Notes under the pieces: generated by a model | What the model was told of the DNA's origin: nothing | Databases searched by the model: none | Seen by the model: the letters and a program-made list of their open reading frames with translations, nothing else | Shown: positions 12,364-51,349 of the stretch, one piece after another | How positions within the stretch are numbered: the first letter of the stretch is position 1 | Layout: each line of letters opens with the position of its first letter | Source of the DNA: a virus | Length of the DNA stretch: 52,569 nucleotides | Direction: 5' to 3' (one strand) | IMG/VR virus record: IMGVR_UViG_3300031539_000044 | Location: 1 to 52,569 of that record | Made by a program: the position numbers and the translations under genes

Positions 12364-14397
12364 TTAAATCTCTCCTACGTCAATGCTCGGGTCAAAGAAT
12401 AGAATATCAGCAGACTTGGCTTGTCCTACCCTTTGTAATTGATTACCAGCGGTTGAAGGTGCGGTAGAAGTCATAGCCCCTGCCGTTGCCGCAGAAATAT
12501 AAATCATTGCTCCTGCGAACTCAAAAGCAGAATCATCTCTGATATAGCCTTTAACTAACATTAGACAAATCTCACTATCGGCTTTTGTTTCTAAAGCAAT
12601 TCTTAATCCGGGCATAGTTATTAAAGCATCTGCTTTCGCTAATTTCCATTCTTTGTCAGTCCAATTAAAGTATAATAATTGCCCGAAAACTACTGACTCA
12701 CCAACTGGTTGGCTATCTACATCTCCAGAATACAAATGGTCAGAGTCTAAAGCATTAGCAAAATTTATCGCTCCAACTGTCATTGCAACATTACCTTTTA
12801 AATATGTTTCTGTAATGCTGTCATTGCCTAAAACAACCGTATTAGCCCCCTTACCTATTGCATTATAACCAATGACTATACTATTGCTATCGTCATTATT
12901 AAAACCCCTTACCCCAGCACCAATATAAACCGAATTTTCAGGAGTGGCTAAAGCAGTCTCTCCATCTGCTTGCCACAGACCAGCATCCGCACCTATCGCG
13001 GTATTATTACTACCTGTAGTATTATAATAAAGAGCGTCATAACCCAATCCAGTATTTTTGTTCCCTGTAGTATTATTAGCCAGATTATCATAACCTACTG
13101 CAACATTGAATCTACCTTCAGTATTATCAGTAAGAGAGGTTTGACCCATTGCAACATTCTGGTCACCAATAGTGTTAGAAAACAAAGCATTATAACCCAC
13201 CGCAGTATTACTATCCGCTGCAATAGTTCCGCCTTCAGCTGCTGATTTTCCTGCTCCCTGACCCAAGAATGTATTATACTGAGCACCAGCTACTAAATTT
13301 AATCCTGCATCTTTTCCTATAAATGTATTATGGTCAGTATCAACAGCAGAAAGGGTTAGACCATTTATCGAAGTAGCTGTAGCTACCCCGAGTGCCCAAT
13401 TACCTGTAACCGTCTCATTCTCATCTAACATAGCAATAGTAGTTCTATCGGATAAATCATCAGAAGATATTGCCCTGCTTTCCCAACTATCTCCATCAGC
13501 AACCAATACATATTTATCGGTTGGAGTAGTTACGCCTACATCGGATAAGTCAGATAATTGAGAAGCACCACCGCCAGTTTCATCTTCACATTCCCAGTTT
13601 GTCGAAGTAGAGTTATATTTTAATATCTTTCCATTAGCAATATCAGTTAAGTCAACATCACCAATATCGCCTATACTGTCAGCTTTCTTGAAGAAGGTTG
13701 CTTCAAAAGTAGCATTTAAATCCGTATCGGTATTTTGGGTATGAAGTTCACTATCATTGGCAAGTGAAACTCCCCATATAGCCTCTACTTCTGCCTGTGA
13801 ATCTATAGCAGTCTTTAGGTAGTAATCAGTCAAAGCAGTAGCCATCTCTGTCGAAGTAGTTACATTCAATCCCCAAATAGTTTCCATTTCAGAAAGACTA
13901 TCAATAGCAGTTTTGAGGTAATAGTCAGTTAAGGCAGTAGCAAGTTCAGTTGAATCAGTTATATTTACACCATAAATGGTTTCTACTTTCGATAATGTGT
14001 TTATCTCTGTTTTGAGATAGTAAAGCGTTAAATCAAAACCTAATTCTGCTTTAGTCTGCCAAGTCATTTCACCGGCAATATAAGCAGCAATATCATTATT
14101 TACCGGATCATTAGAGAATTTTAATCCGGTTTCAGGTATTTGTATTGTACCCCCTGTGGTCGCATCTTTAGGATATAGATCATTCCTTTTAGAATGGATC
14201 AGCAAGGCTCCTAAATCGTCAATTATCTGTCTCATTTCGTTGGTATCTTCCAGGGCATCGGCTTTATCAGCAGCACCCACATAAAAGTTAGTTCCGGATT
14301 CCTGGGTATATTTGTAATATGCAGTAAAGCCATTTATACTAGATAACAATAGGATAACCGATAAAATTATTCCTAACCATATTCTTTTTTTAAACAT
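12364..14397 (-). CDS. Tail fibre/adhesin-like protein with YadA-head-type repeats and signal peptide
   Basis: 677 residues from the ATG at 14397, with AAAGGAGATATTAAG upstream; a start six codons earlier has no site. A signal peptide ('KKRIWLGIILSVILLLSS') opens it. Then come three ~37-residue repeats around 'TDYYLKTAIDSLSEMETIWG', and a run of trimeric-adhesin head motifs ('NTAVGYNALFSNT', 'NVAVGYDNLANNT', 'NTGLGYDALYYNT', 'NTAIGADAGLW'). It looks like a trimeric fibre tip or adhesin. Export by signal peptide is odd for a virion fibre, so it may act at the host cell surface. Confidence 0.7.
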   Translation of the reverse strand: MFKKRIWLGIILSVILLLSSINGFTAYYKYTQESGTNFYVGAADKADALEDTNEMRQIIDDLGALLIHSKRNDLYPKDATTGGTIQIPETGLKFSNDPVNNDIAAYIAGEMTWQTKAELGFDLTLYYLKTEINTLSKVETIYGVNITDSTELATALTDYYLKTAIDSLSEMETIWGLNVTTSTEMATALTDYYLKTAIDSQAEVEAIWGVSLANDSELHTQNTDTDLNATFEATFFKKADSIGDIGDVDLTDIANGKILKYNSTSTNWECEDETGGGASQLSDLSDVGVTTPTDKYVLVADGDSWESRAISSDDLSDRTTIAMLDENETVTGNWALGVATATSINGLTLSAVDTDHNTFIGKDAGLNLVAGAQYNTFLGQGAGKSAAEGGTIAADSNTAVGYNALFSNTIGDQNVAMGQTSLTDNTEGRFNVAVGYDNLANNTTGNKNTGLGYDALYYNTTGSNNTAIGADAGLWQADGETALATPENSVYIGAGVRGFNNDDSNSIVIGYNAIGKGANTVVLGNDSITETYLKGNVAMTVGAINFANALDSDHLYSGDVDSQPVGESVVFGQLLYFNWTDKEWKLAKADALITMPGLRIALETKADSEICLMLVKGYIRDDSAFEFAGAMIYISAATAGAMTSTAPSTAGNQLQRVGQAKSADILFFDPSIDVGEI

Positions 14398-14424
14398 CTT
14401 AATATCTCCTTTCATTCATTTAAT

Positions 14425-14490
14425 AAAAAAAGAGCCAGACTAAAAGGCTTTTCACCTTTTTAAGATCTGGCTCTCTAAAAATGGAGCTCT
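14425..14490 (-). terminator. Conserved leader: box AGAGCTCCA plus terminator hairpin (copy A)
   Basis: On the minus strand AGAGCTCCA (plus 14482-14490) is followed after five bases by AGAGAGCCAGA, an inner stem AAAAGG/CCTTTT, then TCTGGCTCT and a seven-base T-run. The outer stem (14431-14439 with 14466-14474) is an intrinsic terminator. The inner stem sequence differs from copies B and C but remains paired. It lies in the leader of the fibre gene. Confidence 0.75.
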
Positions 14491-24096: not shown

Positions 24097-25266
24097 TTAT
24101 TCCACCTTAAATAAATTTTTCTTTGTGTCTTCCGTTGCTGCCCAGATGTCCCAGCGTATGGGTAATCTATTATTATTTAATCCAATTCCCAAGTTCATAT
24201 ATTCCCCTGCTTTTTCATAGTCCTTTTTCTCGAATTCATAGATAGCTAACCAATTCAGAATTTCCGGTAAGACTATTTTTGTATTACTAATTAATAATTG
24301 CTCGTATAAACTTCCCTTCGTTCTATAAATATTAAGTGCAATCTCAAAATATTCTTTTGCCTTTTCGTTATCTTTACCGGTCCAGAAATTCCCCAACATT
24401 AAATATATTTGAGAAATCCTACTTGAATAATGACAGGCTTCTCTCTCTGTTTTTTCCGCATTTTTTATATCATTCTTGGCCAAATATGCACCCACCAACT
24501 TAACAAAAACTTCAAGAAATGAATTCCATCCCTCATTATAATCTTCCTTTCTCATTCGTTTGATCCATATCTCCCCATATTCAATAACATTCTCAAAATC
24601 TTTAATTACATAATAAGTTTTGACTAAATGAGTTAAATTATGCAAGTTCTCCGGATGTTCCTTAAATTCTTTTTGGAGTATCGATAAACTACGCTCCATT
24701 TTATTATCTAATAATTTTTCGCCCTTTTCCCCCTGGAAAATATATCCATAATGATTAAAGATTATATGAGGGGCAAAAAGATAAGGGGGTTTGCAAATTG
24801 GTCTGTTATGGACCGCCTGTTCAAAATGGAAACCGCTCTCATTTTTGAATATTCTGGGCTGTAACATTTCTGAATATTGCTTCCAATCTTTAGTATAATA
24901 ATTATATAAATTTACAAATACCGTTGGTTCTTTATATTTCGGATTCAAAATTATATCTTCTAAGGGATATAGACATTGCTGACGCAATTCTTCATCGGCA
25001 TCTACCTGCATGAGTTTATCCCCGGTAGCTTTCCCGATCCCATAATTGCGAGCCTTACTAAAATTCCAGGGAATAAATTCTTTTTTATATATCTTATTGG
25101 TATATTCCTTTGCTACCTTAATGGTCCTATCCGATGAGCCGGTATCAAGTATTACTAATTCACACCATTTTTCATGTATAATGGGAAGAAAACTATCAAG
25201 GCATCGTTTAAGATTCGCTTCCTCATTTTTAACGATCATAATGATTGATAATTTTGGTTTTTCCAT
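24097..25266 (-). CDS. Family-2 glycosyltransferase with TPR tail
   Basis: 389 residues, starting MEKPKLSIIMIVKNEE after AAAGGAGAATTAA. GT2 features: 'LVILDTGSSDRTIKVAKEY', 'NFSKARNYGIGKATGD', and the DxD-like 'MQVDADEELR' near residue 91. The C-terminal half (~180-389) is tetratricopeptide-like ('YLMLGNFWTGKDNEKAKEYFEIALNIY'). It is close to the TPR-glycosyltransferases used in surface glycans. It lies between the tail chaperone region and the tape measure, a very unusual place. Confidence 0.85.
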   Translation of the reverse strand: MEKPKLSIIMIVKNEEANLKRCLDSFLPIIHEKWCELVILDTGSSDRTIKVAKEYTNKIYKKEFIPWNFSKARNYGIGKATGDKLMQVDADEELRQQCLYPLEDIILNPKYKEPTVFVNLYNYYTKDWKQYSEMLQPRIFKNESGFHFEQAVHNRPICKPPYLFAPHIIFNHYGYIFQGEKGEKLLDNKMERSLSILQKEFKEHPENLHNLTHLVKTYYVIKDFENVIEYGEIWIKRMRKEDYNEGWNSFLEVFVKLVGAYLAKNDIKNAEKTEREACHYSSRISQIYLMLGNFWTGKDNEKAKEYFEIALNIYRTKGSLYEQLLISNTKIVLPEILNWLAIYEFEKKDYEKAGEYMNLGIGLNNNRLPIRWDIWAATEDTKKNLFKVE

Positions 25267-28373: not shown

Positions 28374-29492
28374 TTATGCACCCCATAAAGTCGCATTTTC
28401 AGTATCAAGAGAAAGCACTCTATCTATTGTGGGCCAGGATGGGAATGCATTTAATTCGCTTTTGGTGTATTCAGCTACAGGATCAACATCAGACCATTTG
28501 GAAATTAGAATCGGTCCTTTCTTGGCTTGAACCACCTGTTTCGGAGGATTTGTCTCCTCTGCGATAGGTCCATAAAGCAGATCTCCACACTTTAAATCTT
28601 CAAGGAAAGTCACATATCTATCCGCACCATCAGAATCTAACCAGGGATCAACCGATGTAATTGTGTGGCCTGCATCCTCATAACTTATTCTAGTGTTAAT
28701 TATCATTATTTCTGGGTATCCCTCAGATCTTAAAGCATCATTTGCCACTTCAAGAGTAGGTGCCCTCTGTTTTTTGAGCCCACCATATAAAGCGAATGGA
28801 ATGACGAAATCCTTGATCTGATCCGAAATTCTAAATGCCAGCCATTTAGAACGATTCATCAGCATATATCTGGGTAATACTCCAAGATCACTAGCCGCCT
28901 CCATAACAGCTTCTATATCAGTTATGGGTTTAGAAGTGGCAGCGTTGCCGATTTCCCAATAAGTGTTAGCAGCTCCTACCACAGCTTTTTTATTGGCCAA
29001 AGGAAGTCCAAAATCAATGGCCTCTTCGGTTATCACTCCTGCGGCATTTGTAACCATAGAAAGAGTTATTTGTCCTTTAGATAATGCTTGAAATATTATC
29101 CACTCTAATCTGGCATTTGCGCCATCTACGCAGTCATCTACATCTCCAAATACAAGATCAAGTAAAGCCGTCTGTTCTGGCCTTGCCTGAGCTTTTAATA
29201 TGTTATAAGTATTCAAATCCATTTCTGTCATTTTCTTTTTCATTCTGATAGAAGGGATTTCTCCTGATAATTTACTTACAGTCCTTCTGGTTTTGAGAGG
29301 TGCACTTACATCATAAGCCACCACATCAGCAGCCACCCTATTCCCCTTACTCCCAACCAATGTTTCGTAAGTTAGGAAGGGAGTTGACTTTAAAGGAAAG
29401 AATGTAGGCCAAAATAGTTTTTCATATATTCGTGCAATAAGATAGGCCTGTAAGGTCTTTTTATTTATTTCTTTTAATAGTGAATATTCCAT
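28374..29492 (-). CDS. Major capsid protein (lambda E-type family)
   Basis: 372 residues after AAGGAGAAATAAT. Pattern of the Phage_cap_E family: 'FPLKSTPFLTYETLVGSKGN', 'VVAYDVSAPLKTRRTVSKLSGEIPSIRMKKKMTEMDLN'-like segments (seen in parts), 'LNTYNILKAQARPEQ', 'CVDGANARLEWIIFQALSKGQ', and later 'LPRYMLMNRSKWLAFR', 'EIMIINTRISYEDAGH', 'GPIAEETNPPKQVVQAKKGPIL'. It forms the icosahedral shell. It sits after scaffold and decoration genes. No N-terminal delta cleavage domain is evident; a separate protease is not seen. Confidence 0.85.
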   Translation of the reverse strand: MEYSLLKEINKKTLQAYLIARIYEKLFWPTFFPLKSTPFLTYETLVGSKGNRVAADVVAYDVSAPLKTRRTVSKLSGEIPSIRMKKKMTEMDLNTYNILKAQARPEQTALLDLVFGDVDDCVDGANARLEWIIFQALSKGQITLSMVTNAAGVITEEAIDFGLPLANKKAVVGAANTYWEIGNAATSKPITDIEAVMEAASDLGVLPRYMLMNRSKWLAFRISDQIKDFVIPFALYGGLKKQRAPTLEVANDALRSEGYPEIMIINTRISYEDAGHTITSVDPWLDSDGADRYVTFLEDLKCGDLLYGPIAEETNPPKQVVQAKKGPILISKWSDVDPVAEYTKSELNAFPSWPTIDRVLSLDTENATLWGA

Positions 29493-30144: not shown

Positions 30145-30903
30145 CTATTCATTTATTTTTTTTATTTTAATTTCTTTGCCTTTCTTGATTTCTTCTTCTG
30201 ATAATCCCTGAAAAGGTTGCCCTTCAGCCCCTTCATTTTTTGCTTTGGCAAAGCTGATCGCCGTCTCCTCTTCAATGGTTCCCATTTCTTCGCCTTTTTT
30301 AGGGATCTCTCCATCTTTAAGTTTTTTATCAATTTCGGCTTGTTTAAGTCCGAGAACCTCGTCCTTTAAACTTTTGACACTTGTCTCAATGTCTTCATCT
30401 TTATCAACTGTAATATATTTTAAGAATCCTTCGCTTAAATCTGCTTTTTTTAGAGCATCTTTAATTAAAGTCTCCCGCTTTGTCTTGACAGTCGTTCCAC
30501 TCAAATCTTTTACCAAATCAGTCAACTTGTTAACCGATTCAGTTAGATCCGATATTTTCTTTTCACTTTCACTCATATTTGCCTGTTCTTTCTTTTTCTT
30601 TTCTTCAGCTTTTTCTTTTGCCGTTGCCTCTTCTTTTTCTTTTGCTGATTTTAGATCATGAGTGGTAATGGCTTGCGATACCCTCCGGTCCGTTTCGCTC
30701 TGCAGGTATTTATTGAAACTTTCTTCCAGCCCAGCTTCTTTGATAGCACCGACAAGTTGTTCCGGGGTCAGATCAATTTTCCCTTTTAATTTTTCAATTT
30801 CTGCGTCAATTTGACTTGCATCAGTCACCTTGATTTTTTCTGCTAATCCCTCATCAAGTCCTGCTTTTTTTAAGGCAGTTTTAATTTGAGTTATTAAGTC
30901 CAT
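30145..30903 (-). CDS. Scaffolding protein
   Basis: 252 residues after AAAGGAGATTAATTAAA. Highly charged and helical, with a central coiled coil ('KSAKEKEEATAKEKAEEKKKK', 'MSESEKKISDLTESVNKLTDLVK'), the typical composition and position of a phage scaffold before the decoration and capsid genes. It has no protease motif. It first appears in the head operon after the short genes at 30933-31261. Confidence 0.75.
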   Translation of the reverse strand: MDLITQIKTALKKAGLDEGLAEKIKVTDASQIDAEIEKLKGKIDLTPEQLVGAIKEAGLEESFNKYLQSETDRRVSQAITTHDLKSAKEKEEATAKEKAEEKKKKEQANMSESEKKISDLTESVNKLTDLVKDLSGTTVKTKRETLIKDALKKADLSEGFLKYITVDKDEDIETSVKSLKDEVLGLKQAEIDKKLKDGEIPKKGEEMGTIEEETAISFAKAKNEGAEGQPFQGLSEEEIKKGKEIKIKKINE

Positions 30904-31069: not shown

Positions 31070-31261
31070 TTATTCTTTTGAGATTACTTTTAAAGCCGAG
31101 CTTCTCAATGCTTCCGATATATTACTCTGCTTTTTTTTCATTTCTCTTTCTACTTCTGACATCAATTTCTTATCTTTCCTGATTTCCACAGCTTTAATTA
31201 AAGTATCTACTGCATTGGCAATTTCCCATTTTTTCTGTCTTTCTTTTTCCGTTTCTGGCAT
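31070..31261 (-). CDS. Small charged helical protein
   Basis: 63 residues from the ATG at 31261; the longer frame to 31315 starts inside the terminator hairpin and is rejected. Very charged ('EVEREMKKKQSNISEALRSS'). First gene after the conserved leader copy B, at the head of the capsid operon. Function unknown. Confidence 0.5.
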   Translation of the reverse strand: MPETEKERQKKWEIANAVDTLIKAVEIRKDKKLMSEVEREMKKKQSNISEALRSSALKVISKE

Positions 31262-31296: not shown

Positions 31297-31366
31297 AAAA
31301 AAAGAGCCAACTCAAAAAGACTCGATCATAAAGTCTTTTTAGATTGGCTCTCTAGTTTGGAGCTCT
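31297..31366 (-). terminator. Conserved leader: box AGAGCTCCA plus terminator hairpin (copy B)
   Basis: Box at 31358-31366 (minus AGAGCTCCA), then AGAGAGCCA (31345-31353), inner stem AAAAAGACT/AGTCTTTTT, TGGCTCT (31303-31309) and a seven-base T-run. A good promoter (31394-31421) ends only about 20 bases before the box, so transcripts start just before this leader and must pass the terminator to reach the capsid genes. Confidence 0.8.
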
Positions 31367-31393
31367 ATTTAATTATTTATTTTCCTTATTTAT

Positions 31394-31421
31394 ATTATAT
31401 CATTTTTTTTATCATTGGCAA
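31394..31421 (-). promoter_or_regulatory. Promoter for head/tail operon
   Basis: TTGCCA (31416-31421) and TATAAT (31394-31399) on the minus strand with 16-base spacing, just upstream of the conserved box-terminator leader. A likely start near 31387 would put the AGAGCTCCA box at about +21. Confidence 0.65.
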
Positions 31422-31799: not shown

Positions 31800-32312
31800 T
31801 TAAGGTAATTGGTAGCCTATTATCCATCTATCGTTTATGATCAAACTCTCCTTAAAATCATTTTGCGACCATTGACTTATATGAGTCTCATATATATTGC
31901 CAAACATTGTGCCTTGTCCGCTAATATAATTGGGGGTTGATATTATATAATGCTTGGCTTTTTTAAGCATTTTAAGCCCCTCTTCTTTTTTTATGTGTTC
32001 AATAACATCCATAAATAATACCAAATCATAATTCACTAATATTTCATTATTTTTAGTTATGTCTTGATTATAAATATTATTGTAAATTATATCATACCAG
32101 GGTAATTTAGTATATTCCTTAAAGATTTCTATTGCGTCTATTCGTTTTTTCCAATCTTTTGGGCATAACCGGCCCTGCCAGACTTCAAGATATTCTCTTA
32201 GCAAAAAACCCCATTTCCCGAAACCAGAGCCTACGTCAAGAATAGAATCCGGATTGATTTTCATTATTAAATCAATTACCGGGCTGATTATGTTGGGCCT
32301 ACCTGATGGCAT
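31800..32312 (-). CDS. SAM-dependent methyltransferase
   Basis: 170 residues, starting MPSGRPNIISPVI after GGGAGAGATTAAA. Motif I 'ILDVGSGFGKWGF' (residues ~24-36), an acidic strand 'IDAIEIFKEY' and 'VLFMDVIEHIKKEEG' give a class-I methyltransferase. It overlaps the preceding methyltransferase gene by 25 bases and the two follow a glycosyltransferase, so glycan methylation is the natural guess. Substrate unknown. Confidence 0.8.
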   Translation of the reverse strand: MPSGRPNIISPVIDLIMKINPDSILDVGSGFGKWGFLLREYLEVWQGRLCPKDWKKRIDAIEIFKEYTKLPWYDIIYNNIYNQDITKNNEILVNYDLVLFMDVIEHIKKEEGLKMLKKAKHYIISTPNYISGQGTMFGNIYETHISQWSQNDFKESLIINDRWIIGYQLP

Positions 32313-32941
32313 TTTAATCTCTCTCCCATTTTTTTATAAATATAAAAATTAGAATTCGATTTATTAGGATATCTGTTTTTGATTTCTTTCATTAATTTCC
32401 ATTCCGGTAAATTTGTTTTTATCCATTCTGAAAATTGTCTACTCCTGCAATGAAGTGATGAAAATATTGAATTATTATTATCATCAGAAGAATAGATAAT
32501 GACAAATTTATTAGAAACCAGGAATAAATGTTTCATATAAAGTTTAAATATATCATCTTCAATAAGATGGTATATTACATCTAATGATAAACTAAGTTCG
32601 GTTTCAAAATTATTTTCAATCCCAAAAGAATAAGGATCATACAAAAAGAAACTTTTTGTTTTGTCTCCCTTAAATCGTTCTCTGCATATTCCTATCGCAG
32701 TTTTCGCGATATCTAGGCCTATATAATTATAAATTTTGAATAATGATAATTGATTTCCATCGCCACAACCAAATTCTATCATTTTAATAATTTCATTTTC
32801 TTTTATAAATTTATTTATAACTTCGGCTTTAAATTCCGCCAATTTCCCGTATGAACCTGAACCTGAATTCCCCCCGGTAATATATCTCTTTTCCCAATAT
32901 TTTTTGGAATCAACGAAATCTTTATAGTAATTACTGTTCAT
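32288..32941 (-). CDS. SAM-dependent methyltransferase
   Basis: 217 residues. The start 'DSKKYWEKRYITGGNSGSGSYG' and motif I 'MIEFGCGDGNQLSLF' (residues ~53-67) match the class-I family often seen next to glycosyltransferases in phages and in surface-glycan clusters. 'YIGLDIAKTAIGICRERF' and 'SLSLDVIYHLIEDD' provide the rest of the fold. It lies two bases after the glycosyltransferase gene. Confidence 0.8.
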   Translation of the reverse strand: MNSNYYKDFVDSKKYWEKRYITGGNSGSGSYGKLAEFKAEVINKFIKENEIIKMIEFGCGDGNQLSLFKIYNYIGLDIAKTAIGICRERFKGDKTKSFFLYDPYSFGIENNFETELSLSLDVIYHLIEDDIFKLYMKHLFLVSNKFVIIYSSDDNNNSIFSSLHCRSRQFSEWIKTNLPEWKLMKEIKNRYPNKSNSNFYIYKKMGERLKCHQVGPT

Positions 32942-32943
32942 GC

Positions 32944-33879
32944 TTATCTTAATATTTCCTTTATAATATCTTTAATTTGTTTTAACTGATTTTCCAAAGT
33001 CCACCCTTTTTCTATAATCCAATTTCTATAAGCATTCGAATAATAATTTTTATTAAGGATCAAGTCTATTGCCCCATCAATTGTATTAAATATATCATCC
33101 TTTCGGTATAAATCTTTAACTCCCCTAAAGTTATGGATTACCGGTTTAATTCCCCTGGCCATGGCCTCAAAAATACCATATCCAAAACTTTCATGTATCG
33201 ATGTATGAAGCAGGTAATTTTTATCTTCCCAAAATTTCTCCATATCATCGATCCAGCCGTAGAATTTTACATTGTCCTGCAACCCCATTTCGTTGATCAT
33301 ATATTCCAGGTATATTTTATATCTTAGATCCTGGAATGAGCCTGCCACGTGCAATTTATATCTTTTATCAATATCAGTTAATTTCTTCAATATTTGTAAG
33401 GCCATTTGAGGATTCTTCTTGTGATTAATGAACCCAACCCAGGCTATGTTATATCCGGGCTGCCGCTCTCTCCATGGAGTAGAATCTAGATCAATCCCAT
33501 TATAAACGATTTCTATTTTAGCTTTCTTCTCGATATCCGGGACAGTTATTTTTAGAATTTCCCTGATATGAGGGCCCACTAGAATTAATCTATTTACGTT
33601 TTCCCAGATAATCTTATTGGGAAGTTGAGAAAAGGCCTCGTAAGAATGTAATCTTACAATTATTTTCTTGCCTTTTATCCCTTCATATCGAGTGCCGATA
33701 ATTGCCACCTCGTTGGCCCACTCTAACCAAACAATATCCCCATAATCAATTGCATTATATATATCTTGTTTATTTCTAATTATAAATTTTCTGGCAATAT
33801 AACTATTCGACAGCCCTTCAATTATCGGATCTATAAATTGGTCAAGTCCTGCTGCACATAAAAAACCTATCTTTTTCAC
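32944..33879 (-). CDS. GT-B glycosyltransferase (family 4-like)
   Basis: 311 residues from a GTG at 33879 (AAAAAGGCGAAATAA upstream). C-terminal GT4 signature: 'IAWVGFINHKKNPQMALQILK' (~158-178), 'DNVKFYGWIDDME', and 'SIHESFGYGIFEAMARG' with the E-x7-E active site. It transfers sugar from a nucleotide donor. It opens the glycosyltransferase-methyltransferase run inserted in the head module. Confidence 0.85.
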   Translation of the reverse strand: MKKIGFLCAAGLDQFIDPIIEGLSNSYIARKFIIRNKQDIYNAIDYGDIVWLEWANEVAIIGTRYEGIKGKKIIVRLHSYEAFSQLPNKIIWENVNRLILVGPHIREILKITVPDIEKKAKIEIVYNGIDLDSTPWRERQPGYNIAWVGFINHKKNPQMALQILKKLTDIDKRYKLHVAGSFQDLRYKIYLEYMINEMGLQDNVKFYGWIDDMEKFWEDKNYLLHTSIHESFGYGIFEAMARGIKPVIHNFRGVKDLYRKDDIFNTIDGAIDLILNKNYYSNAYRNWIIEKGWTLENQLKQIKDIIKEILR

Positions 33880-36093: not shown

Positions 36094-36615
36094 TCAATTA
36101 TCCTCTGGCTTTAATTCTTGTTTCATTCTAAATTGTTTATCAAGAAATCTTTTTAATCTAATATATCTTTGTAGATATGCAAACCTTCCATGTTCATATG
36201 CTGTGACCATAAAATGACAAGTTCCACATATCCATATCCCTTTAGAAGGATTTTTATCATCCCAATGATGATAATTAATTTTTATATTATTCCTCCCACA
36301 AAGTTCGCAATAACCAGTCCAATCCCGTTTATTTAATCCATTAATTTTTTTACCATCAATTATTAATGTAGTTTTTCTATTATAAATTAAAACTTTTTTT
36401 AAAATCTCTTCTTTATTTTCCTTATAATATAATTGACATTGGGTTATCATTTTTTCTTTATTCAATTTTCGATAATCTTTAAAATATTTAGAACTACATT
36501 CTTTACATATACTACTTATTCCATATTTCCCCATTTTCTTTTTATGAAATTCTGACATAGGTTTTGTTTTCTCACATTTAGAACATTTTTTTGTTATTAT
36601 AGTAATATCAGACAT
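36094..36615 (-). CDS. HNH-like zinc endonuclease, inserted
   Basis: 173 residues after GGAGAAAGATTATA. N-terminal zinc ribbon 'KKCSKCEKTKPMSEFHKKK' with 'CKEC', then 'GYCELCGRNNIKINYHHWDDKNP' and 'WICGTCHFMV', the layout of small HNH enzymes with a paired-Cys zinc and His-His core. It lies between the sugar dehydrogenase and MuF genes, overlapping the former by 8 bases; this suggests mobile insertion. Confidence 0.65.
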   Translation of the reverse strand: MSDITIITKKCSKCEKTKPMSEFHKKKMGKYGISSICKECSSKYFKDYRKLNKEKMITQCQLYYKENKEEILKKVLIYNRKTTLIIDGKKINGLNKRDWTGYCELCGRNNIKINYHHWDDKNPSKGIWICGTCHFMVTAYEHGRFAYLQRYIRLKRFLDKQFRMKQELKPEDN

Positions 36616-37414
36616 TATAATCTTTCTCCAGTTTTAATAAGTTTTCGTTTTCTCTATCAGTTTCTATCATTACTCCAGGTAATATTCCTTTTTGCTTTGC
36701 CGCTCTGATCAAGAATTTGAGGTCTTTGGGTAAACATTTACCCCCTGCTCCCCTGTAACCATCGAATAATGGATCAAGATGCATTACATTAATATATTTA
36801 TCTAGTTTAAAAGCCTCGAATAATTTGTAATAATCTGCCTCGTATTTTTGACAGATATCATATAGTTCATTCCCGAATACTACTTTTACCGTATATAGAC
36901 TATTCAAGGCTAACTTTAATAATTCTGCTTCGATTGGTTTCATCATTAATATTTTATTTTTATTATCTACCACACGCTTGAATAGTCTTTCAAATATCTC
37001 GAATACTTCTCTTTTCCTGGTCCCCACGATTATTTTGTCAGGGCAAATTTCATTCAAAAATGCTGTTCGCTCCCGTAAAAATTCAGGCAGATAGACAAAT
37101 TCCCTTTTATATCTTTTTGTAAATTCATCAGTCATCCCCGGCATGATAGTAGATCTTATAGCGATTATTCCTTTTTTGTTTTTAAGGTTTATATAGCCTA
37201 CGGCCATTTTGACATCTTTAAATTTCATATCTTTTTTTGTGGGCACGCATACGAATATAATTTTGCATTCGGAGATATCATCAATCAGGCCTTTAACCGG
37301 ATCATATTGTTTAACCGGATAATCCATATCTTTTAATAATCCAGCAAGGCTGTTTCCGATAACTCCGCAACCCACTATTCCAAGTTCCATTTTTTTATAT
37401 ATTTTATGGTTCAT
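36608..37414 (-). CDS. Nucleotide-sugar (UDP-glucose-type) dehydrogenase, short form
   Basis: 268 residues; start at 37414 overlaps the portal stop. Rossmann motif 'LGIVGCGVIGNSLAGLL' (N-terminus), NAD-binding acidic strand 'KQYDPVKGL', 'FVCVPTKKDMKF', 'IIAIRSTIMPGMTDEF', 'VYLPEFLRERTAF', and the catalytic Cys in 'GGKCLPKDLKF'. The family normally also has a C-terminal UDP-binding domain; this one ends soon after the central helix. It could make UDP-glucuronate-type donors for the phage glycosyltransferases, or work on a related sugar. It sits inside the portal-MuF gap. Confidence 0.8.
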   Translation of the reverse strand: MNHKIYKKMELGIVGCGVIGNSLAGLLKDMDYPVKQYDPVKGLIDDISECKIIFVCVPTKKDMKFKDVKMAVGYINLKNKKGIIAIRSTIMPGMTDEFTKRYKREFVYLPEFLRERTAFLNEICPDKIIVGTRKREVFEIFERLFKRVVDNKNKILMMKPIEAELLKLALNSLYTVKVVFGNELYDICQKYEADYYKLFEAFKLDKYINVMHLDPLFDGYRGAGGKCLPKDLKFLIRAAKQKGILPGVMIETDRENENLLKLEKDYNV

Positions 37415-40517: not shown

Positions 40518-41201
40518 CTAACACCTTTCATCTTTTTCAAAACTTATGATCCCGTCAAAATATTCTTTATAAAAATCATATATTCCTTTGGCTATAGTCA
40601 GGCAGGAGTTTTCTGTCCTGGGATTAGTATTAATATTTGCGCTGCTTTCTACTGCAAAGGCAAATTTCTTTCCATACCCGGCTATGATCTTCGCATGGTT
40701 TCTAAATATCACAAACCGGCCTTTATATTTCTTGATTATCGGTTTTAATAAATCGTATTCCGCGCTATAAGATCCTTTAAATATTTCTCCCACATAAGCA
40801 TCCATTGTTTTTATTTTCCCGGCCTTTAGCCATTCCTCTATCTGTAAGATGTCATCTTGGGCCATGCACCAGGTAGAAAATAAACAATGCTCCAAATCCT
40901 GCTGCCTCAAAACACATTTTAAAAATGATAAAATATCTACATCCCCAGTGCTAATCGTATGGTAGCTTTCGCCTTCTTTAAAATTAAAACCTAATACATC
41001 TAAAAGCTGGGTTTCGCTAAAGGCCTTTCGATATATATTTTTATCTCTTCTGACCGTACAAATAACGTTCCTTCGGATCTGTTTTTCTATCGGCTTTTCT
41101 TCTTTTTCGGCTTCGCTACCAAACTCTAACGAATCAATATTAATCTCGTTGTGCATTATGGCTTCTTGAAATTTTATTTCTTCCAGATCTTCTTCTTTCA
41201 T
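40518..41201 (-). CDS. PLD-like nuclease-superfamily protein
   Basis: 227 residues after AAGAGGGGAAAAAATAAT. 'KGRFVIFRNHAKIIAGYG' gives one H-x-K motif, followed by 'FAVESSANINTNPRTENSC', the S/N-rich half of a phospholipase-D-type site. Single HKD domains usually dimerise as nucleases. It sits just upstream of terS, so a role near packaging or DNA end processing is likely but not shown. Confidence 0.75.
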   Translation of the reverse strand: MKEEDLEEIKFQEAIMHNEINIDSLEFGSEAEKEEKPIEKQIRRNVICTVRRDKNIYRKAFSETQLLDVLGFNFKEGESYHTISTGDVDILSFLKCVLRQQDLEHCLFSTWCMAQDDILQIEEWLKAGKIKTMDAYVGEIFKGSYSAEYDLLKPIIKKYKGRFVIFRNHAKIIAGYGKKFAFAVESSANINTNPRTENSCLTIAKGIYDFYKEYFDGIISFEKDERC

Positions 41202-42366
41202 ATTATTTTTTCCCCTCTTGCCCGGGCCATTCTCAAAGCCCCCGCTTTTCTTTTTAAAAGTTTCCTTAATTTCGGATATCCCAAAAGCCTATCAAATTCT
41301 TTTGCATCCTTCCCAAACCAATATTCAAATTCTTCCATTGCTGAACCGAATATTCCCCCGCCTTTCGGGGATACTGTAGCCTTGGTAGAAGAATGCCATC
41401 CCCTTATCGCTGGGAATCCTTTTCTTTTTTGTAACGTCCATTTCTCACCAACATATATTCTTTTTGGGTCAATATTTAAAATGGGCTGGTATCTCATTGG
41501 AAAAGTCGATACACTCGTTTTCATTTCCATATTTAATCTTACTGTTTCCCGGAGTCTATAATAAAAATCTTCTGGAGTGTCTTTATAGTTATAAAGTGCA
41601 TAAGTCATAAATTCTTTAAATCCTCTTTTTACAAGCATCCAAACCGCCCTTTGGTAATAACCATCTTCCTGCATATTATCAAATGCGAATCTGACCAGGT
41701 ATATTGGCAACCCTTTTAAAAGATCTGCAATTTCTTCGGTCATTAACCGAGCATCAAGCCCCTGGTTAAAATCTATTCTTTTAATCTTGCCACTTTTTAT
41801 AAGTTTATGTAACTTTACAATATCCCTCTTTAAATCAACTCTTTTTTTAGCCAGCCAATTATTATCATAGAATAAAACTTTATCAACACCTAGGGCTATG
41901 TCCTTCTCCCAATTAGTCCGGTTTTCAAATTTCGGCTCTAATTTATTAACCATACAAAACCCACAATTTCTAAGGCAGCCCCGACTGGTGTGCGATATGC
42001 TATATTTCGGCTTTTCTCCTAAAAGACTATAATCGGGGCTAAATTTTTCAGCATCCGGTAATAACCCTGAATAAACTTCAACGCTTTCCTTTCTGAAAAG
42101 ATCCGGTAATAATGTCGCCGATATACCCCCTACAATGACTTTAGAAGCCCTTTCCTTTGCTGCCTTCAATATCCCCAGGGCATGGGGAATATCGTAGGTA
42201 AATGTCGTTGTGATCCATATTTCATCAAATTCTCCGGCCTTTGGTAATCGATCATTAAATATCTGGCAATCATCACCAAGCGATTTACGCCAGGCCCCTA
42301 TTTTTAATAAGGGCAAAGGGTATAATTTAGCCTTCGGCGTGCTCTATCAACTAAAGCAATCCGCAT
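41198..42366 (-). pseudogene. Radical SAM protein 1, -1 frameshift near its start
   Basis: The main frame (from a TTG at 42316, with no ribosome site) gives 372 residues with the radical SAM motif 'SRGCLRNCGFC', 'KVLFYDNNWLAKK' and 'FNQGLDARLM'. The true start is almost certainly the ATG at 42366, with AAAGGAG upstream inside the parB-like gene: it reads MRIALVDRARRRLNYTL, matching the N-terminus of the paralogue at 44060-44965 (MKIGLFDIDSK...LALMKLS). A -1 shift around 42314-42318 joins the two. It may be a real mutation, a sequencing error, or programmed slippage at CCCTTTG. Confidence 0.75.
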
Positions 42367-42930: not shown

Positions 42931-42996
42931 AAAAAAAGAGAACCACCCAAAGAAGTATTAAACTTCTTTAAAAATGGCTCTCTATATTGGAGCTCT
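42931..42996 (-). terminator. Conserved leader: box AGAGCTCCA plus terminator hairpin (copy C)
   Basis: Box at 42988-42996, then GAGAGCCA, inner stem AAAGAAG/CTTCTTT, TGGTTCTC (a G-U wobble instead of copies A and B, keeping the pair) and a seven-base T-run. It precedes the ParB-like/radical SAM/terminase block. The compensating change in the stem supports a selected RNA structure. Confidence 0.75.
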
Positions 42997-43027: not shown

Positions 43028-43375
43028 CTATATGGTTTCTTCTTTATAATCCTCCTCAGATTCATCTAAACCCAATGAATAACTATGTTCAACCTCTATA
43101 TAACCTATTGCTTTAAATATTGCTACATAATAAACATAGTCTGGCATATCAGGGCTATCATATTTATCTACCACTTTCTTCCATCCTAAAAATTCAGCTT
43201 TAAAATATAACTCCTGACCCGGCTCATCTGTTGATATATCATAAATATAACCTATCTTTAGCTTTTCATCTGTCCACGTTCTATTGTCTCCTTCTCCATG
43301 ACACTTTCTCCAAATAATAGGAGTATATGTTGTATCTCCATCCTTTGGCAATCTTTTAAATATCTTATCACTCAT
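43028..43375 (-). CDS. Hypothetical protein
   Basis: 115 residues, starting MSDKIFKRLPKDGDTTY; the start overlaps the Com-like gene stop (ATGA). A beta-rich N-terminus 'YTPIIWRKCHGEGDNRTW' and acidic C-terminus ('SLGLDESEEDYKEE'). No family recognised. It is the last gene before conserved leader copy C. Confidence 0.55.
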   Translation of the reverse strand: MSDKIFKRLPKDGDTTYTPIIWRKCHGEGDNRTWTDEKLKIGYIYDISTDEPGQELYFKAEFLGWKKVVDKYDSPDMPDYVYYVAIFKAIGYIEVEHSYSLGLDESEEDYKEETI

Positions 43376-43551
43376 TCCTTTAACCTCACAATTAATTTAT
43401 CTGGATTCTGATAATCAACTATATTTATCGCTTCGCAGCGGTCTCTATAACATTTAATCTCTATCTTGGTAATTCCATCGGTATTGTCCTCTGGTAATAG
43501 AAAAAAAAGGTTTTTACCACAACTTGCGCACCTTACTTTTATCCTTTTCAT
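43372..43551 (-). CDS. Com-like zinc-finger protein
   Basis: 59 residues, starting MKRIKVRCASCGKNLFF after a weak GGTGGTTGATATAAA. Cysteines in 'VRCASCGK' and 'IKCYRDRCEA' give four zinc ligands, as in Mu Com, which activates translation of the mom modification gene by opening its mRNA. There is no mom here, but radical SAM genes follow. Assignment by motif. Confidence 0.7.
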   Translation of the reverse strand: MKRIKVRCASCGKNLFFLLPEDNTDGITKIEIKCYRDRCEAINIVDYQNPDKLIVRLKE

Positions 43552-43782: not shown

Positions 43783-44082
43783 CTATCCTATTATTTTTAT
43801 CAAATCTTCCAAACAGTCTATTAGATAATATTCCCCTTTTTGATATGTAATATTCCGTTCAAAATCTATCTGGCTAGGAGATTGTGTTCCACCCGGTTTT
43901 TTTGCTTCAAGATATACGGTGCGCCCATTTTTTATAGCTATAAAGTCAGGTATGCCATCATAAGAACCTAACCCTTGTAAATTCCAGAACCAAAACCAAC
44001 CTTTGATAGTCAAATAATCCTTTATTTGGGCTTTGACATCATTCTCGCTTATCTTGAATTTAAATCTGAGTTTTCTTTTCAT
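43783..44082 (-). CDS. VRR-NUC domain nuclease
   Basis: 99 residues from the ATG at 44082 (AAGGGGCAAT upstream). PD-(D/E)xK core: 'VKAQIKDYLTIKGW', 'GLGSYDGIPDFIAIKNG' (Asp), 'TVYLEAKKPGGTQSPSQ' (E-x-K) and 'GEYYLIDCLEDL'. VRR-NUC enzymes resolve branched DNA or cut at structured sites. It overlaps the radical SAM 2 stop by 23 bases. Probably a recombination nuclease for late replication. Confidence 0.85.
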   Translation of the reverse strand: MKRKLRFKFKISENDVKAQIKDYLTIKGWFWFWNLQGLGSYDGIPDFIAIKNGRTVYLEAKKPGGTQSPSQIDFERNITYQKGEYYLIDCLEDLIKIIG

Positions 44083-44965
44083 ATTGCCCCTTATAATCTT
44101 CCCATTCACAACTTCTATTGATCCAGGGATTATTCACCCATCTTATAAAATCTTTATATCTTCTACTTTTTAATTCATTATTGTAATTCATAACATAAGC
44201 CTTGATTGATCCCCGGCTGTCCTTAATGCCTCTTAATACTTCTACTCTGTAAAGATCCTCTTCAAAGTTAGAATTAAACCCGATTAAGACATACATAGTT
44301 ATATTTCTCGGCCTGATCCCCGCTTTAATTATAAGTTTTAACCCTTCTCTTACTTTGTATTCGTCTTTAACATCATCCCATGCAAATCTTATTGTTTTAT
44401 AATGTTTCACTTTGGCCAGCAATTCAGAATTTTCTTTATTGATCAGCCGGATATCAAGACCTTGGTTAAAGTCCATCACCCAACCTTTTTTAATATACTT
44501 TTTCAGTTTTTCAACATGAGAAGGTAGGGCTAGGAAATTGTTATCAAGTAGGATCACGATATTAAATTTAGGATTAAGAAATTCTTCCACTTCTGCGTGT
44601 TCTCTGATATAGCCCTCTTTTTGCCTGACGATACAGAAGCCACAATTTCTGATACAACCTCGAGTAGTAAAACCCAAAGAATAATTAAGATTATATAAAT
44701 CATAATCGGGTTTGATATGCTCTATCTCTTCGGGTAATACATTTGAATTGAATCCTGATCCACCACAATACATATCCCTTCTAATATAACCATCATTTTT
44801 ATTAGGTTTTTTGAATATTTTAGAAACGTAAATCTTACCATAGGTATTAATCCATAAAGGATTATAAAATTCCACCTCATCGCCCTTTTGCTTATGGTAA
44901 GTAGATAATTTCATTAATGCTAAATTATGGTACTTGCTATCGATATCAAATAAACCGATCTTCAC
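44060..44965 (-). CDS. Radical SAM protein 2 (B12-binding-like family)
   Basis: 301 residues from a GTG at 44965 (GAAGGTGATAAACT upstream). N-terminal alpha/beta region (MKIGLFDIDSKYHNLALMK), then the Cys motif 'TRGCIRNCGFC' (~102-112) for the 4Fe-4S cluster, 'IVILLDNNFLAL', 'DFNQGLDIRLI' and 'TIRFAWDDVKDEY', matching the other radical SAM gene. Family members use SAM radicals for unusual modifications. It is a paralogue of 41198-42366. A role in DNA or virion modification is suggested by context only. Confidence 0.85.
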   Translation of the reverse strand: MKIGLFDIDSKYHNLALMKLSTYHKQKGDEVEFYNPLWINTYGKIYVSKIFKKPNKNDGYIRRDMYCGGSGFNSNVLPEEIEHIKPDYDLYNLNYSLGFTTRGCIRNCGFCIVRQKEGYIREHAEVEEFLNPKFNIVILLDNNFLALPSHVEKLKKYIKKGWVMDFNQGLDIRLINKENSELLAKVKHYKTIRFAWDDVKDEYKVREGLKLIIKAGIRPRNITMYVLIGFNSNFEEDLYRVEVLRGIKDSRGSIKAYVMNYNNELKSRRYKDFIRWVNNPWINRSCEWEDYKGQYEKKTQI

Positions 44966-45604: not shown

Positions 45605-45847
45605 TTAAAATAATATTTGCCCCCCTCTATGAGAATAGATGAGCTCGTTTATCTTCTTGTATTGGTCCGGGTTTATAAGTGGCAGCCTTTTTCTCATGTC
45701 TACCCAGACGGTAGTTACGGAAACTTTAAATTTTAACGCGGTAGTTTTCAGGGTTACATTGTTCCTTAGCATAAATTCAGACTCATCAAATACCCTTTCC
45801 ACAATACTTTTAGAAAAATTTGAATCAATATTAACCTTAGATCTCAT
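45605..45847 (-). CDS. SpoIIID-like DNA-binding protein
   Basis: 80 residues, starting MRSKVNIDSNFSKSIVERV after AAAGAAAGGAGGAAATAAATC. The centre 'LRNNVTLKTTALKFKVSVTTVWVDMRKRLP' (in parts) and 'LINPDQYKKINELIYSHRGG' follow the SpoIIID pattern (TvR.tAk.f.VSksTVh.D...RLp...). SpoIIID controls mother-cell sporulation genes in Bacillota. A phage copy may regulate phage genes or interfere with spores. This is the main clue to the host. Confidence 0.7.
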   Translation of the reverse strand: MRSKVNIDSNFSKSIVERVFDESEFMLRNNVTLKTTALKFKVSVTTVWVDMRKRLPLINPDQYKKINELIYSHRGGQILF

Positions 45848-46136: not shown

Positions 46137-46514
46137 TTAACTACCCCCGACTTTCTCAATAAAATCTTGAACCAAAAACTTGTCATGTACAGTCTCAACC
46201 ACCTTATAATATTTTATATATTTATTATTTATCCTGGTATTCTCCTTTCTCTTGGTCAGTAATTCTGGACTTAATGTTTTCTCAAAAGCGATGAGTTTTT
46301 TCTCCTTTTCTGTTTTTTGATCCTTCAGAGGTTTAAAATATCTCCTCTTATAGTCTCTCTTTCTGCCCCACTTTCTTAATAAACTGTATATGGTAGTAAA
46401 AGATACTCCATACTCCTGGGCAATTTTTAATATCCGTATGTCCTGTTTATCCTTCTGGATTATTGCCTCCCGGTTAGCTATTAACATTTTATGAATTCCA
46501 ATTCTACCTTTCAT
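46137..46514 (-). CDS. HTH-containing regulatory protein
   Basis: 125 residues after GGGAGGCATGAAGG. A helix-turn-helix is visible in 'RILKIAQEYGVSFTTIYSLLRKWGRKRDYKRR' (in parts), of the resolvase/Homeo-like type; the rest is basic. It is the gene directly after the structured element at 46543-46623, so its expression may depend on that leader. Confidence 0.6.
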   Translation of the reverse strand: MKGRIGIHKMLIANREAIIQKDKQDIRILKIAQEYGVSFTTIYSLLRKWGRKRDYKRRYFKPLKDQKTEKEKKLIAFEKTLSPELLTKRKENTRINNKYIKYYKVVETVHDKFLVQDFIEKVGGS

Positions 46515-47573: not shown

Positions 47574-48254
47574 TTATAGAACTATTTTAGGAAATTCTTT
47601 TATCTCTACCGGATAAATTTCTTTTAAGCTGTCCTTTAGATAAACCGGGATTTTATTTTCTTTACAGCAGTTAACAATATCTTCAATCCATTCCTTTTTT
47701 GGTATTATCTTGCCTTTTCTATTCCCAGTCTCACTTCCCAAGATTACCCAATTAATTTTTTGATAGATTATGCTAAAAAAATGTCCTGTATTCATATATT
47801 CAATATATCTTGCATCAATTTTTTCTAATATCGGTTCTATGCTGATAAATTTAATCCTGTTTCCACAAGTAAAATCCATCTTATAAAGTTCATCATTATT
47901 GACAACGGTCGCTCCCAACCAGCAATTTTCGGGGAATTTATATCTTAAATATACTTCCGGGTATTTAGTCAAAAATTGAAAAATATGTTGAGGATATTGC
48001 CTAATCTTTTTTAATACTTGAAACATCCATTTTTCTTCCCAATGTGCTGTCTCACTCATACTCCCTACGAATATTCGCTGAGGTTTACTGGGGAACGTTT
48101 TATTAAAACTATTTTCTCTCCATTCTGGTTTATTCCAATCTTCAATAAATTTAAACCTATTATTTATCCTTCTTGCATAGCAATAACTACAATTGTTTTT
48201 ACATCCAACTACCGGATTAAAGGTCATCGAACACCACCCAATTTTATTTTTCAT
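47574..48254 (-). CDS. DUF5131 / Gp37-Gp68-type radical SAM-like protein
   Basis: 226 residues after GGAAGGCTAAGAAG. 'IGWCSMTFNPVVGCKNNCSYCYARR' (in parts: 'VGCKNNCSYCYARR') carries the radical SAM-like Cys motif, followed by 'IFVGSMSETAHWEEKW', 'HIFQFLTKYPEVY', 'CWLGATVVNN', 'ISIEPILEKID' and 'WVILGSETGNRKG', the DUF5131 (phage Gp37/Gp68) signature. Function of the family is unknown. It is the third Fe-S/SAM-type protein in the window. Confidence 0.85.
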   Translation of the reverse strand: MKNKIGWCSMTFNPVVGCKNNCSYCYARRINNRFKFIEDWNKPEWRENSFNKTFPSKPQRIFVGSMSETAHWEEKWMFQVLKKIRQYPQHIFQFLTKYPEVYLRYKFPENCWLGATVVNNDELYKMDFTCGNRIKFISIEPILEKIDARYIEYMNTGHFFSIIYQKINWVILGSETGNRKGKIIPKKEWIEDIVNCCKENKIPVYLKDSLKEIYPVEIKEFPKIVL

Positions 48255-49636: not shown

Positions 49637-51349
49637 TTATTCTGGTATATCCTCAGGTGCGATAGTATCCTCGTCTGGGTATGGTGCATCTTCATTCTTC
49701 ACTTCTAATTTGCCAACCCTATAAGGTATATCCTCATCGGCAATTTCCTGACCTTCTTCAATCTCCCGCTCTTCTTCAATCTTTGCCACTTCTATTATTT
49801 TTTCTACCGCTTCCGGATCCTCTAATAATTTCTTTTGTACATCTTCTATCGCGGTCCCCGGCTCAATTAGATCACCCAAACAGGCAAAGTAAGCTATTTC
49901 TCTCCAGGTAGTGAGCCCCACTTCTTTTAAAGTCTCAAATATCTTATCTAATTTTTTTTTGTCATCCTCAGTGGGTGGCTCCAGGGCTTTCATAAGCCGG
50001 GAATATACCTCTTTATTGGTAGTCAATACTTTTTTGGCTATATGTTCGGTGAGGTGAGTTTTTATTATTCCCCGCTCTAAGGCAAATTCAACCAGTTTTT
50101 CAAAGGTATCGATCCCAACCTTTTGGGCTTTTTCTGATATGGCCTGTAAGATCTTATTTTCTTCTTCAACCTTTTTCTTATATATGGTTTTGCTTTCTTG
50201 ATAAGATTTGAGTTTGCCCTTTCCTTCTTCTTGATCCTTCTTTAACTGGGTTTCCTGGACCCTTGATTCATCAATCTCTTTTTTCAGATCTTGCCCTTTT
50301 GATTTTTCCTTTATTGGTTCTTTTGCTTCTTTTTTCTTTTCCTGATCCCCGGCCTTTTTCTCTTTTTTCTCTTTAGCCTCATTTTCTTTTTTTAATTCCT
50401 CTTGAGCAATGGCTCTTTTATTTTCTATCTCTTTTATTTCTTCTTCAGTTAAACGTTTAAATGCTGCTCTCTCTTTTTCACTATCCTCTTTTTCGCTATC
50501 AAATTTTGGGCTAATTTCTTCTGGCCTTTCCGGTATTTGATATATCCGCTTTTGTTCCAAAAATAAGGTTTTGCCTGTCCTTATCTTTCTAATATCTTCT
50601 ATGGGTAGATCTAATTCGCAGGTTAGGGGCCAGTGTTTATCTTTTCTCTTCTCGTGCTGGGTCTCTTTTTGTATTCGCCTTAATTTAAAAGGCAACATAG
50701 TTATGCCATTATATTCGCCGGTTATAGGATCTTTGAGTAGTTCCAAGGCTAAATAAACCCCGCTCTGGACGTCCACCATGGTATTGTAAGATCCGGAATC
50801 AATTACATAAATACCGCCCATTGAGATTTTGGGGATAAAAAAGAAGAGGCTGGCTCGTTTACTGCAGCCATCCTTTTGTCCAAACTTATCGCAGGGGCAT
50901 TCGACTTCTTCAAAAACTCCTTCCTCATTAGCCTTCATCGCAGTTTCCCCATCCCCTACACATTTAAGACCCCTTGAGCTGCCATAATATTTATAGGCCT
51001 GGGGAAATAAACCGCCAATATCCGGCAAACCGTTTTCGTCTAGACCGGATAAAGGAAAGGCTATATCTAATTCAATGGGATCTTTTCCAAACATTGCTTC
51101 AACTTCAGAAGGGCATACAAAATAAAAAACATCTTTAGGATGAAATTCTAATTCTCCAAATTTATCTCTTTTTTGTACGAAATCGCCATTACTGTCTTTT
51201 TTATATTTTCCATCATTATCTTTTGTTAGGGTAGGAACTTTAATCCCCAACCGGACTTTGCCTTTCCAGGTCAACCTGCGGATACTGCTAACCGGGTATT
51301 CACCCCGGATCTTAGTAAACCTCTTAAAAAAACCTGTGTTATTATTCAT
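49637..51349 (-). CDS. Recombination-directionality-factor-like protein (copy 2)
   Basis: 570 residues after GGAGGTAATTTTAA. N-terminal ~270 residues nearly identical to copy 1 (541 residues at 1003-2628): 'FFKRFTKIRGEYPVSSIRR', 'YFVCPSEVEAMFG', 'EVECPCDKFGQKDGC' (possible metal site). The coiled-coil segment is longer here and the C-terminal tail differs ('VGKLEVKNEDAPYPDEDT'). Two near-identical but non-identical versions in one assembly suggest related phages or a real duplication. Confidence 0.6.
   Translation of the reverse strand: MNNNTGFFKRFTKIRGEYPVSSIRRLTWKGKVRLGIKVPTLTKDNDGKYKKDSNGDFVQKRDKFGELEFHPKDVFYFVCPSEVEAMFGKDPIELDIAFPLSGLDENGLPDIGGLFPQAYKYYGSSRGLKCVGDGETAMKANEEGVFEEVECPCDKFGQKDGCSKRASLFFFIPKISMGGIYVIDSGSYNTMVDVQSGVYLALELLKDPITGEYNGITMLPFKLRRIQKETQHEKRKDKHWPLTCELDLPIEDIRKIRTGKTLFLEQKRIYQIPERPEEISPKFDSEKEDSEKERAAFKRLTEEEIKEIENKRAIAQEELKKENEAKEKKEKKAGDQEKKKEAKEPIKEKSKGQDLKKEIDESRVQETQLKKDQEEGKGKLKSYQESKTIYKKKVEEENKILQAISEKAQKVGIDTFEKLVEFALERGIIKTHLTEHIAKKVLTTNKEVYSRLMKALEPPTEDDKKKLDKIFETLKEVGLTTWREIAYFACLGDLIEPGTAIEDVQKKLLEDPEAVEKIIEVAKIEEEREIEEGQEIADEDIPYRVGKLEVKNEDAPYPDEDTIAPEDIPE

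Follow-up and report, generated by a model that had tools for sequence, protein, structure and literature searches.

The closest described system is com-mom of phage Mu, in which Com is known as a translational activator of mom (PMC6483171). SELEX with a Mu-like (Haemophilus) Com gave the motif NGAGNNCC(N)2-3GAGNNCCNN. The selected hairpin has a variable stem of 3-4 bp closed by a C-G pair, and the GA of its CC(N)2-3GAG loop is essential; the second C of the loop motif may contact the G of GA (PMC6483171). Com is expected to bind in competition with an inhibitory RNA structure (PMC6483171). The phage described here resembles Mu in having a putative small zinc-ribbon RNA-binding protein and a hairpin with a variable 4-bp stem and a C(N)2-3GA loop. 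Mu, however, has one site region, an inhibitory structure that masks the mom start codon and one modification gene, whereas this phage has several sites per genome, an intrinsic terminator as the inhibitory structure and virion operons as the targets.

Other known systems share part of the logic. In the LicT/SacY/BglG systems, a protein stabilizes a weak hairpin, the RAT, that shares a strand with a terminator. RAT belongs to PTS-regulated sugar systems, and there is no evident RNA or protein resemblance; by analogy, the element would work like the RAT antiterminators without being a member of them. Lambda Q/tR' and HK022 put also place late or early phage genes behind promoter-proximal terminators. 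Both bring about processive antitermination, lambda Q by loading at a DNA element close to a paused polymerase and put as an RNA that needs no protein; the element here is instead a local RNA hairpin that overlaps a terminator and is repeated at three places, in contrast to the single late promoter of Q/tR'. No Q-like PHROG was present among the genes scanned in the record. The comparisons with Q and put made in the first-pass annotation are unneeded, as the element looks like an operator at which the phage's own Com-like RNA-binding protein would act.

The window, i.e. the whole 52,569-nt IMG/VR virus record, carries all examined phage genes on its minus strand. Copy B of the element has a sigma70-like promoter at 31394..31421 (minus strand), consisting of TTGCCA (31421-31416), a 16-nt spacer and TATAAT (31399-31394), with TG ahead of the -10. 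It scores 11 of 12, the top of 63 sigma70-like sites in a scan of 30-45 kb, a total that represents no excess over shuffled sequence (63.8). The box AGAGCTCCA lies at 31366-31358, minus strand, at about +22 from the probable start. It is followed by an intrinsic terminator (31297..31353, minus strand) made of a hairpin at 31353-31301 and 7 U down to 31297; the hairpin has a folding energy of -26.5 kcal/mol (z -4.7). Part of the box, termed R1, the segment R2 in the terminator 5' arm and the segment R3, GCUC, in the 3' arm (31307-31304) are the three strands of interest. R1 (31363-31360) and R2 (31350-31347) form a Com-operator-like hairpin at 31345..31366 (minus strand), AGA-GCUC-loop-GAGC-CA, with a nascent fold of -4.5 kcal/mol, covariation and a match to the SELEX motif. 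The first gene beyond copy B encodes 63 aa (31070..31261, minus strand, ATG 31261) and is retained after the element in relatives G001 and G020; the scaffold gene (30145-30903) and the major capsid gene (28374-29492) follow on the same strand. The arrangement of promoter, box and terminator noticed in the first-pass annotation is thus present on the minus strand, and the capsid and tail genes it placed beyond were found there, together with the scaffold gene. Could the box itself be a transcription start, with TAAATA ahead of it as a -10? This was rejected: the AT-rich upstream motif varies in a manner unlike a -10 (CCGAATA, ACCAAATA), and the B-type promoters sit further upstream.

The exact box is present three times in the record, where 0.23 are expected, and none of 100 shuffles reached three. 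Downstream of each box come N4-5, AGAGAGCCA, an inner stem that is unrelated in sequence, TGGCTCT or TGGTTCT, and a T run. On the coding strand, a strict hairpin scan of the record detected these three copies (A, B and C) and no other, as against 0.2 expected from shuffled sequence. Copy C has its Com-operator-like hairpin at 42975..42996 (minus strand; R1 42993-42990, R2 42980-42977; 87.7 bits) and its terminator at 42931..42983 (minus strand), directly ahead of a ParB-like gene (ATG 42911) that precedes the terminase and portal genes. In copy A the hairpin is at 14468..14490 (minus strand; R1 14487-14484, R2 14473-14470; 79.2 bits) and the terminator at 14425..14476 (minus strand), directly ahead of the spike-like gene 12364-14415. 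The operons downstream are therefore those of packaging (C), the small gene, scaffold, capsid and tail (B) and the spike (A), with 20-40 nt between an element and the next gene start. Copies A and C lie between genes of an operon and have no clear promoter. Among related copies, 27 of 70 have a promoter-like site (>=10 of 13) within 75 nt upstream, as against 4.1 in shuffles, so that the promoter appears to be a property of a subset, the copy B type.

The general layout is AGA-R1-C..GA-R2-C...G-R3-U-run, R1 being complementary to R2 and R2 to R3. Thus in the record the GCUC of the box (R1) pairs with GAGC of the terminator 5' arm (R2). Many different letters are found in these positions: R1/R2/R3 types include GCUC/GAGC/GCUC, GCAC/GUGC/GCAC, GCGC/GCGC/GCGC and GCUA/UAGC/GCUA, and also GUGC/GCAC/GUGC, GCGU/ACGC/GCGU, GCUU/AAGC/GCUU and others, some with G-U pairs. 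R1:R2 pairing is complete in 12 of 14 distinct types (54 of 56 pairs), the two exceptions having one mismatch each (GCCC/GAGC and GCAC/GAGC). When R1 was shuffled among the types, a mean of 3.8 were fully paired and 12 was reached in none of 100,000 shuffles. Stem letters differ even between copies within single phages (G005, G020, G022). As the box and the 3' arm both pair with R2, the terminator and the upstream hairpin are mutually exclusive. Folding of the growing transcript of copies A, B and C predicts that, for the greater part of the interval preceding synthesis of the 3' arm, the RNA is folded as R1:R2, at about -4 to -4.5 kcal/mol; in the full-length RNA the terminator wins by about 9 kcal/mol. 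An antiterminator and a terminator sharing one strand, the hallmark of a protein-dependent attenuator, are evident in both the three-strand covariation and the folds. The regulated terminator proposed at first reading, with an antitermination layout, a conserved box and a possible RNA switch, is supported, but the partner of the box is the 5' arm and not the 3' arm. The pairing of AGAGC with GCUCU of the 3' arm that had been suggested is lost when the arms change: loci L462, L466 and L431 keep AGA and lose CUCU.

Dozens of viral contigs with the same element came out of pattern scans, and with a covariance model related phages were each found to have 2-4 copies, situated on the coding strand. 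Near-complete relatives have copies at the starts of the packaging, the portal or capsid, and the spike modules, and copies persist even where the capsid module was replaced by one unrelated to that of the record. Relatives were also fetched by the capsid protein and a second terminase family, to avoid selecting on the box. Of their loci that extend far enough to show it, most have the element ahead of the capsid operon, with many different letters, and 24 of 26 copies in the capsid-anchored set are fully paired. Loss of the box where the hairpin is kept had been named as the observation that would refute the idea; in the capsid-anchored relatives the box persists with compensating changes. 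Matches to a broad 15-letter pattern in genome contigs were mostly chance and this pattern was set aside, and blastn of single elements against named phages gave chance pieces only. An Rfam scan of the record at the gathering threshold found no family, and matches in related loci were weak and confined to a subset. A manA RNA match at L279 5463-5638 scores 45 bits, short of the gathering score, and lies some 0.3 kb away from a copy of the element that is divergent. Leaders at L082, L349 and L379 have tandem Com-type hairpins with different stem letters (GCUC/GAGC, ACCC/GGGU) ahead of a terminator.

What might bind the hairpin? The proposed trans-acting factor is a Com-like zinc-ribbon protein of 59 aa with four cysteines (CASC ... 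CYRDRC), encoded at 43372..43551 (minus strand), with early genes on one side and copy C, 0.4 kb downstream, on the other. It matches phrog_6417, 'translational regulator', at 6.9e-8, and hhalign of a Com-like set from the clade against a Mu Com set gives a probability of 97.2 (E 3e-11). Pfam PF10122 does not match the protein of the record; it matches the homologues of G005 (8.3e-5, just under the cut-off) and G002 (0.0036). Com family members are small and have two CxxC knuckles; the protein of the record is likewise small, has two knuckles, the second of them CX4C, and shows profile similarity to Com. A tblastn search with a clade Com found none in named phages. Com-like genes are present in relatives G001-G007; G020 and G022 are fragments that start at the terminase. 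A search of viral contigs with nothing but the clade Com profile gave 29 loci, all 29 with the element downstream, at 14 to about 3,200 nt; these loci are from related phages, some near-identical, and represent fewer than 29 independent cases.

The linkage extends beyond the clade. In several unrelated phages a gene that ends in a Cys-x-x-Cys zinc ribbon of the Mu Com type runs up to the element, and Pfam calls some of these adjacent genes Com (6e-11, 7.5e-8, 2.2e-8). Of 76 Com loci outside the clade, 16 (about 13 without near-identical pairs) have the complete three-strand attenuator downstream, mostly ahead of portal or scaffold genes; neither of the two controls, the upstream side and the opposite strand, gave any. 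In sampled Bacillota genomes, the attenuator was found after 1 of about 27 parsed Com homologues. Com thus does not always imply an attenuator, and much of the family acts otherwise. A bacterial genome, G464 (same order as G042), has a Com gene followed by a full attenuator, GCUU/AAGC/GCUU (L623).

The R1:R2 hairpin, with its AGA, GNNC, a loop of the form C-N..-GA, and a second GNNC, fits the in vitro Com motif GAGNNCC-N2-3-GAGNNCC. Sequence features of a Com operator are present: a repeated GAGNNCC, a GNNC:GNNC stem, and C and GA at the ends of the loop. The GAGNNCC units are 2-3 nt apart in sister copies versus 6-7 nt in the record's own, and the loops of the record are 9-10 nt compared with 5-6 nt in SELEX and Mu hairpins, short loops being found in sister copies. 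RNAfold places a C-G pair across the operator loop together with a bulged A, consistent with the published remark on the second C of the motif (PMC6483171). Mu, Smp131, Mcat3 and Pseudomonas phages have a hairpin of this form, with different stem letters, where com ends; there it precedes the modification gene (or the next gene). Among further general viral Com loci, 35 of 77 have an operator-like hairpin, as against 2 of 77 control stretches. Nine loci (L530, L544, L551, L555, L558, L560, L587, L588, L591) have two such hairpins about 22 nt apart just past com.

The reading favoured here, with a probability of roughly 80%, is that each copy is a transcription attenuator run by the phage's Com-like protein and serving to open a late operon. 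Its basis consists of the three copies, the exclusive pairings and the way these covary, the agreement with the motif published for Com, and the linkage to Com genes; from these one may infer binding of the RNA by the phage's own Com, with readthrough as the effect. Polymerase would make the box (R1, GCUC) first and then the 5' arm (R2, GAGC), which would pair as a short hairpin whose loop displays the C...GA signature for Com. Without Com, R2 would re-pair with the later R3 (GCUC), and transcription would stop at the U run, before the ribosome-binding site of the next gene. Com, a product of the preceding early or middle genes, would bind the nascent hairpin, hold R2 and block the terminator. 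Readthrough would then enter the genes for packaging at copy C, for scaffold, capsid and tail at copy B and for the spike at copy A. Since the gene for Com precedes copy C, a rising level of the protein would open every gate at once. In short, Com probably turns on the virion genes by preventing a transcription stop.

An alternative that is unlikely, but less so than others, keeps the RNA switch and changes the ligand, with a phage or host RNA-binding protein or a Nus-type processive complex acting on it and the Com-like gene a mere neighbour. The covariation backs an RNA switch and says nothing about the ligand; the 3' arm and U run contain GCUCUUU, which resembles a boxA core, and HTH genes (46137-46514, 45605-45847) are conserved nearby. 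The boxA-like letters vanish, however, when the 3' arm changes, and the HTH genes look DNA-binding, whereas loop and flank letters fit the Com SELEX motif in detail, the element is present at 29 of 29 Com-anchored loci and unrelated phages have Com directly ahead of it. It is improbable that Com acts here chiefly by changing how the next gene is translated or how stable its RNA is, after the manner of Mu mom, with the U run secondary. The known com-mom operator does act on translation (PMC6483171), and the element is only 20-40 nt ahead of the next gene start; yet the strand shared with a strong hairpin and 7-8 U's is retained in nearly all copies, R3 covaries with R2, and com-linked operators lacking this arrangement mostly have no such terminator. 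It is very hard to credit that box and arm form a dyad in the DNA at which a transcription factor for late genes binds, with an ordinary terminator behind it, as, despite an inverted DNA repeat near promoters in B copies and phage-encoded DNA-binding HTH genes, the copies of one genome vary in stem letters yet stay complementary, the 3' arm changes in step, and the element keeps a single strand orientation, many copies being without a promoter.

Attenuation by Com would offer a mechanism of late-gene control for phages in whose examined genes no regulator resembling Q, RinA or a sigma factor can be recognized. No report was found in the open-access literature of Com as an antiterminator, or of a Com operator fused to a terminator before virion operons, and a Com-gated terminator of structural genes is undescribed as far as could be found. 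It would add a new job, antitermination of virion operons, to a family annotated only for control of DNA modification, and many terminators that stand without explanation in the intergenic regions ahead of portal, scaffold and capsid genes could become predictable switches. The element would also constitute a small, portable RNA-protein switch whose stem letters are freely exchangeable. Are Com-gated terminators a common switch for late genes, one that has arisen in or spread to numerous unrelated phages of low and high GC, Mu com-mom being one special case of a device that sets a Com hairpin against an inhibitory structure? The odds for this broader proposal appear about even.

Other genes in the record are also of interest. 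The 80-aa protein encoded at 45605-45847 is SpoIIID-like (Pfam 2.4e-9), which suggests a spore-forming Bacillota host. A PHROG scan of one of two paralogues found no match; these proteins, of 541 and 570 aa (1003-2628 and 49637-51349), have very similar N-termini, lie at opposite ends of the record and are conserved in relatives. Cargo genes at or near the structural operons (24097-25266, 31800-33879, 36608-37414, 41198-42316, 44060-44965 and 47574-48254) are glycosyltransferase-, methyltransferase-, UDP-glucose-dehydrogenase- and radical-SAM-like.
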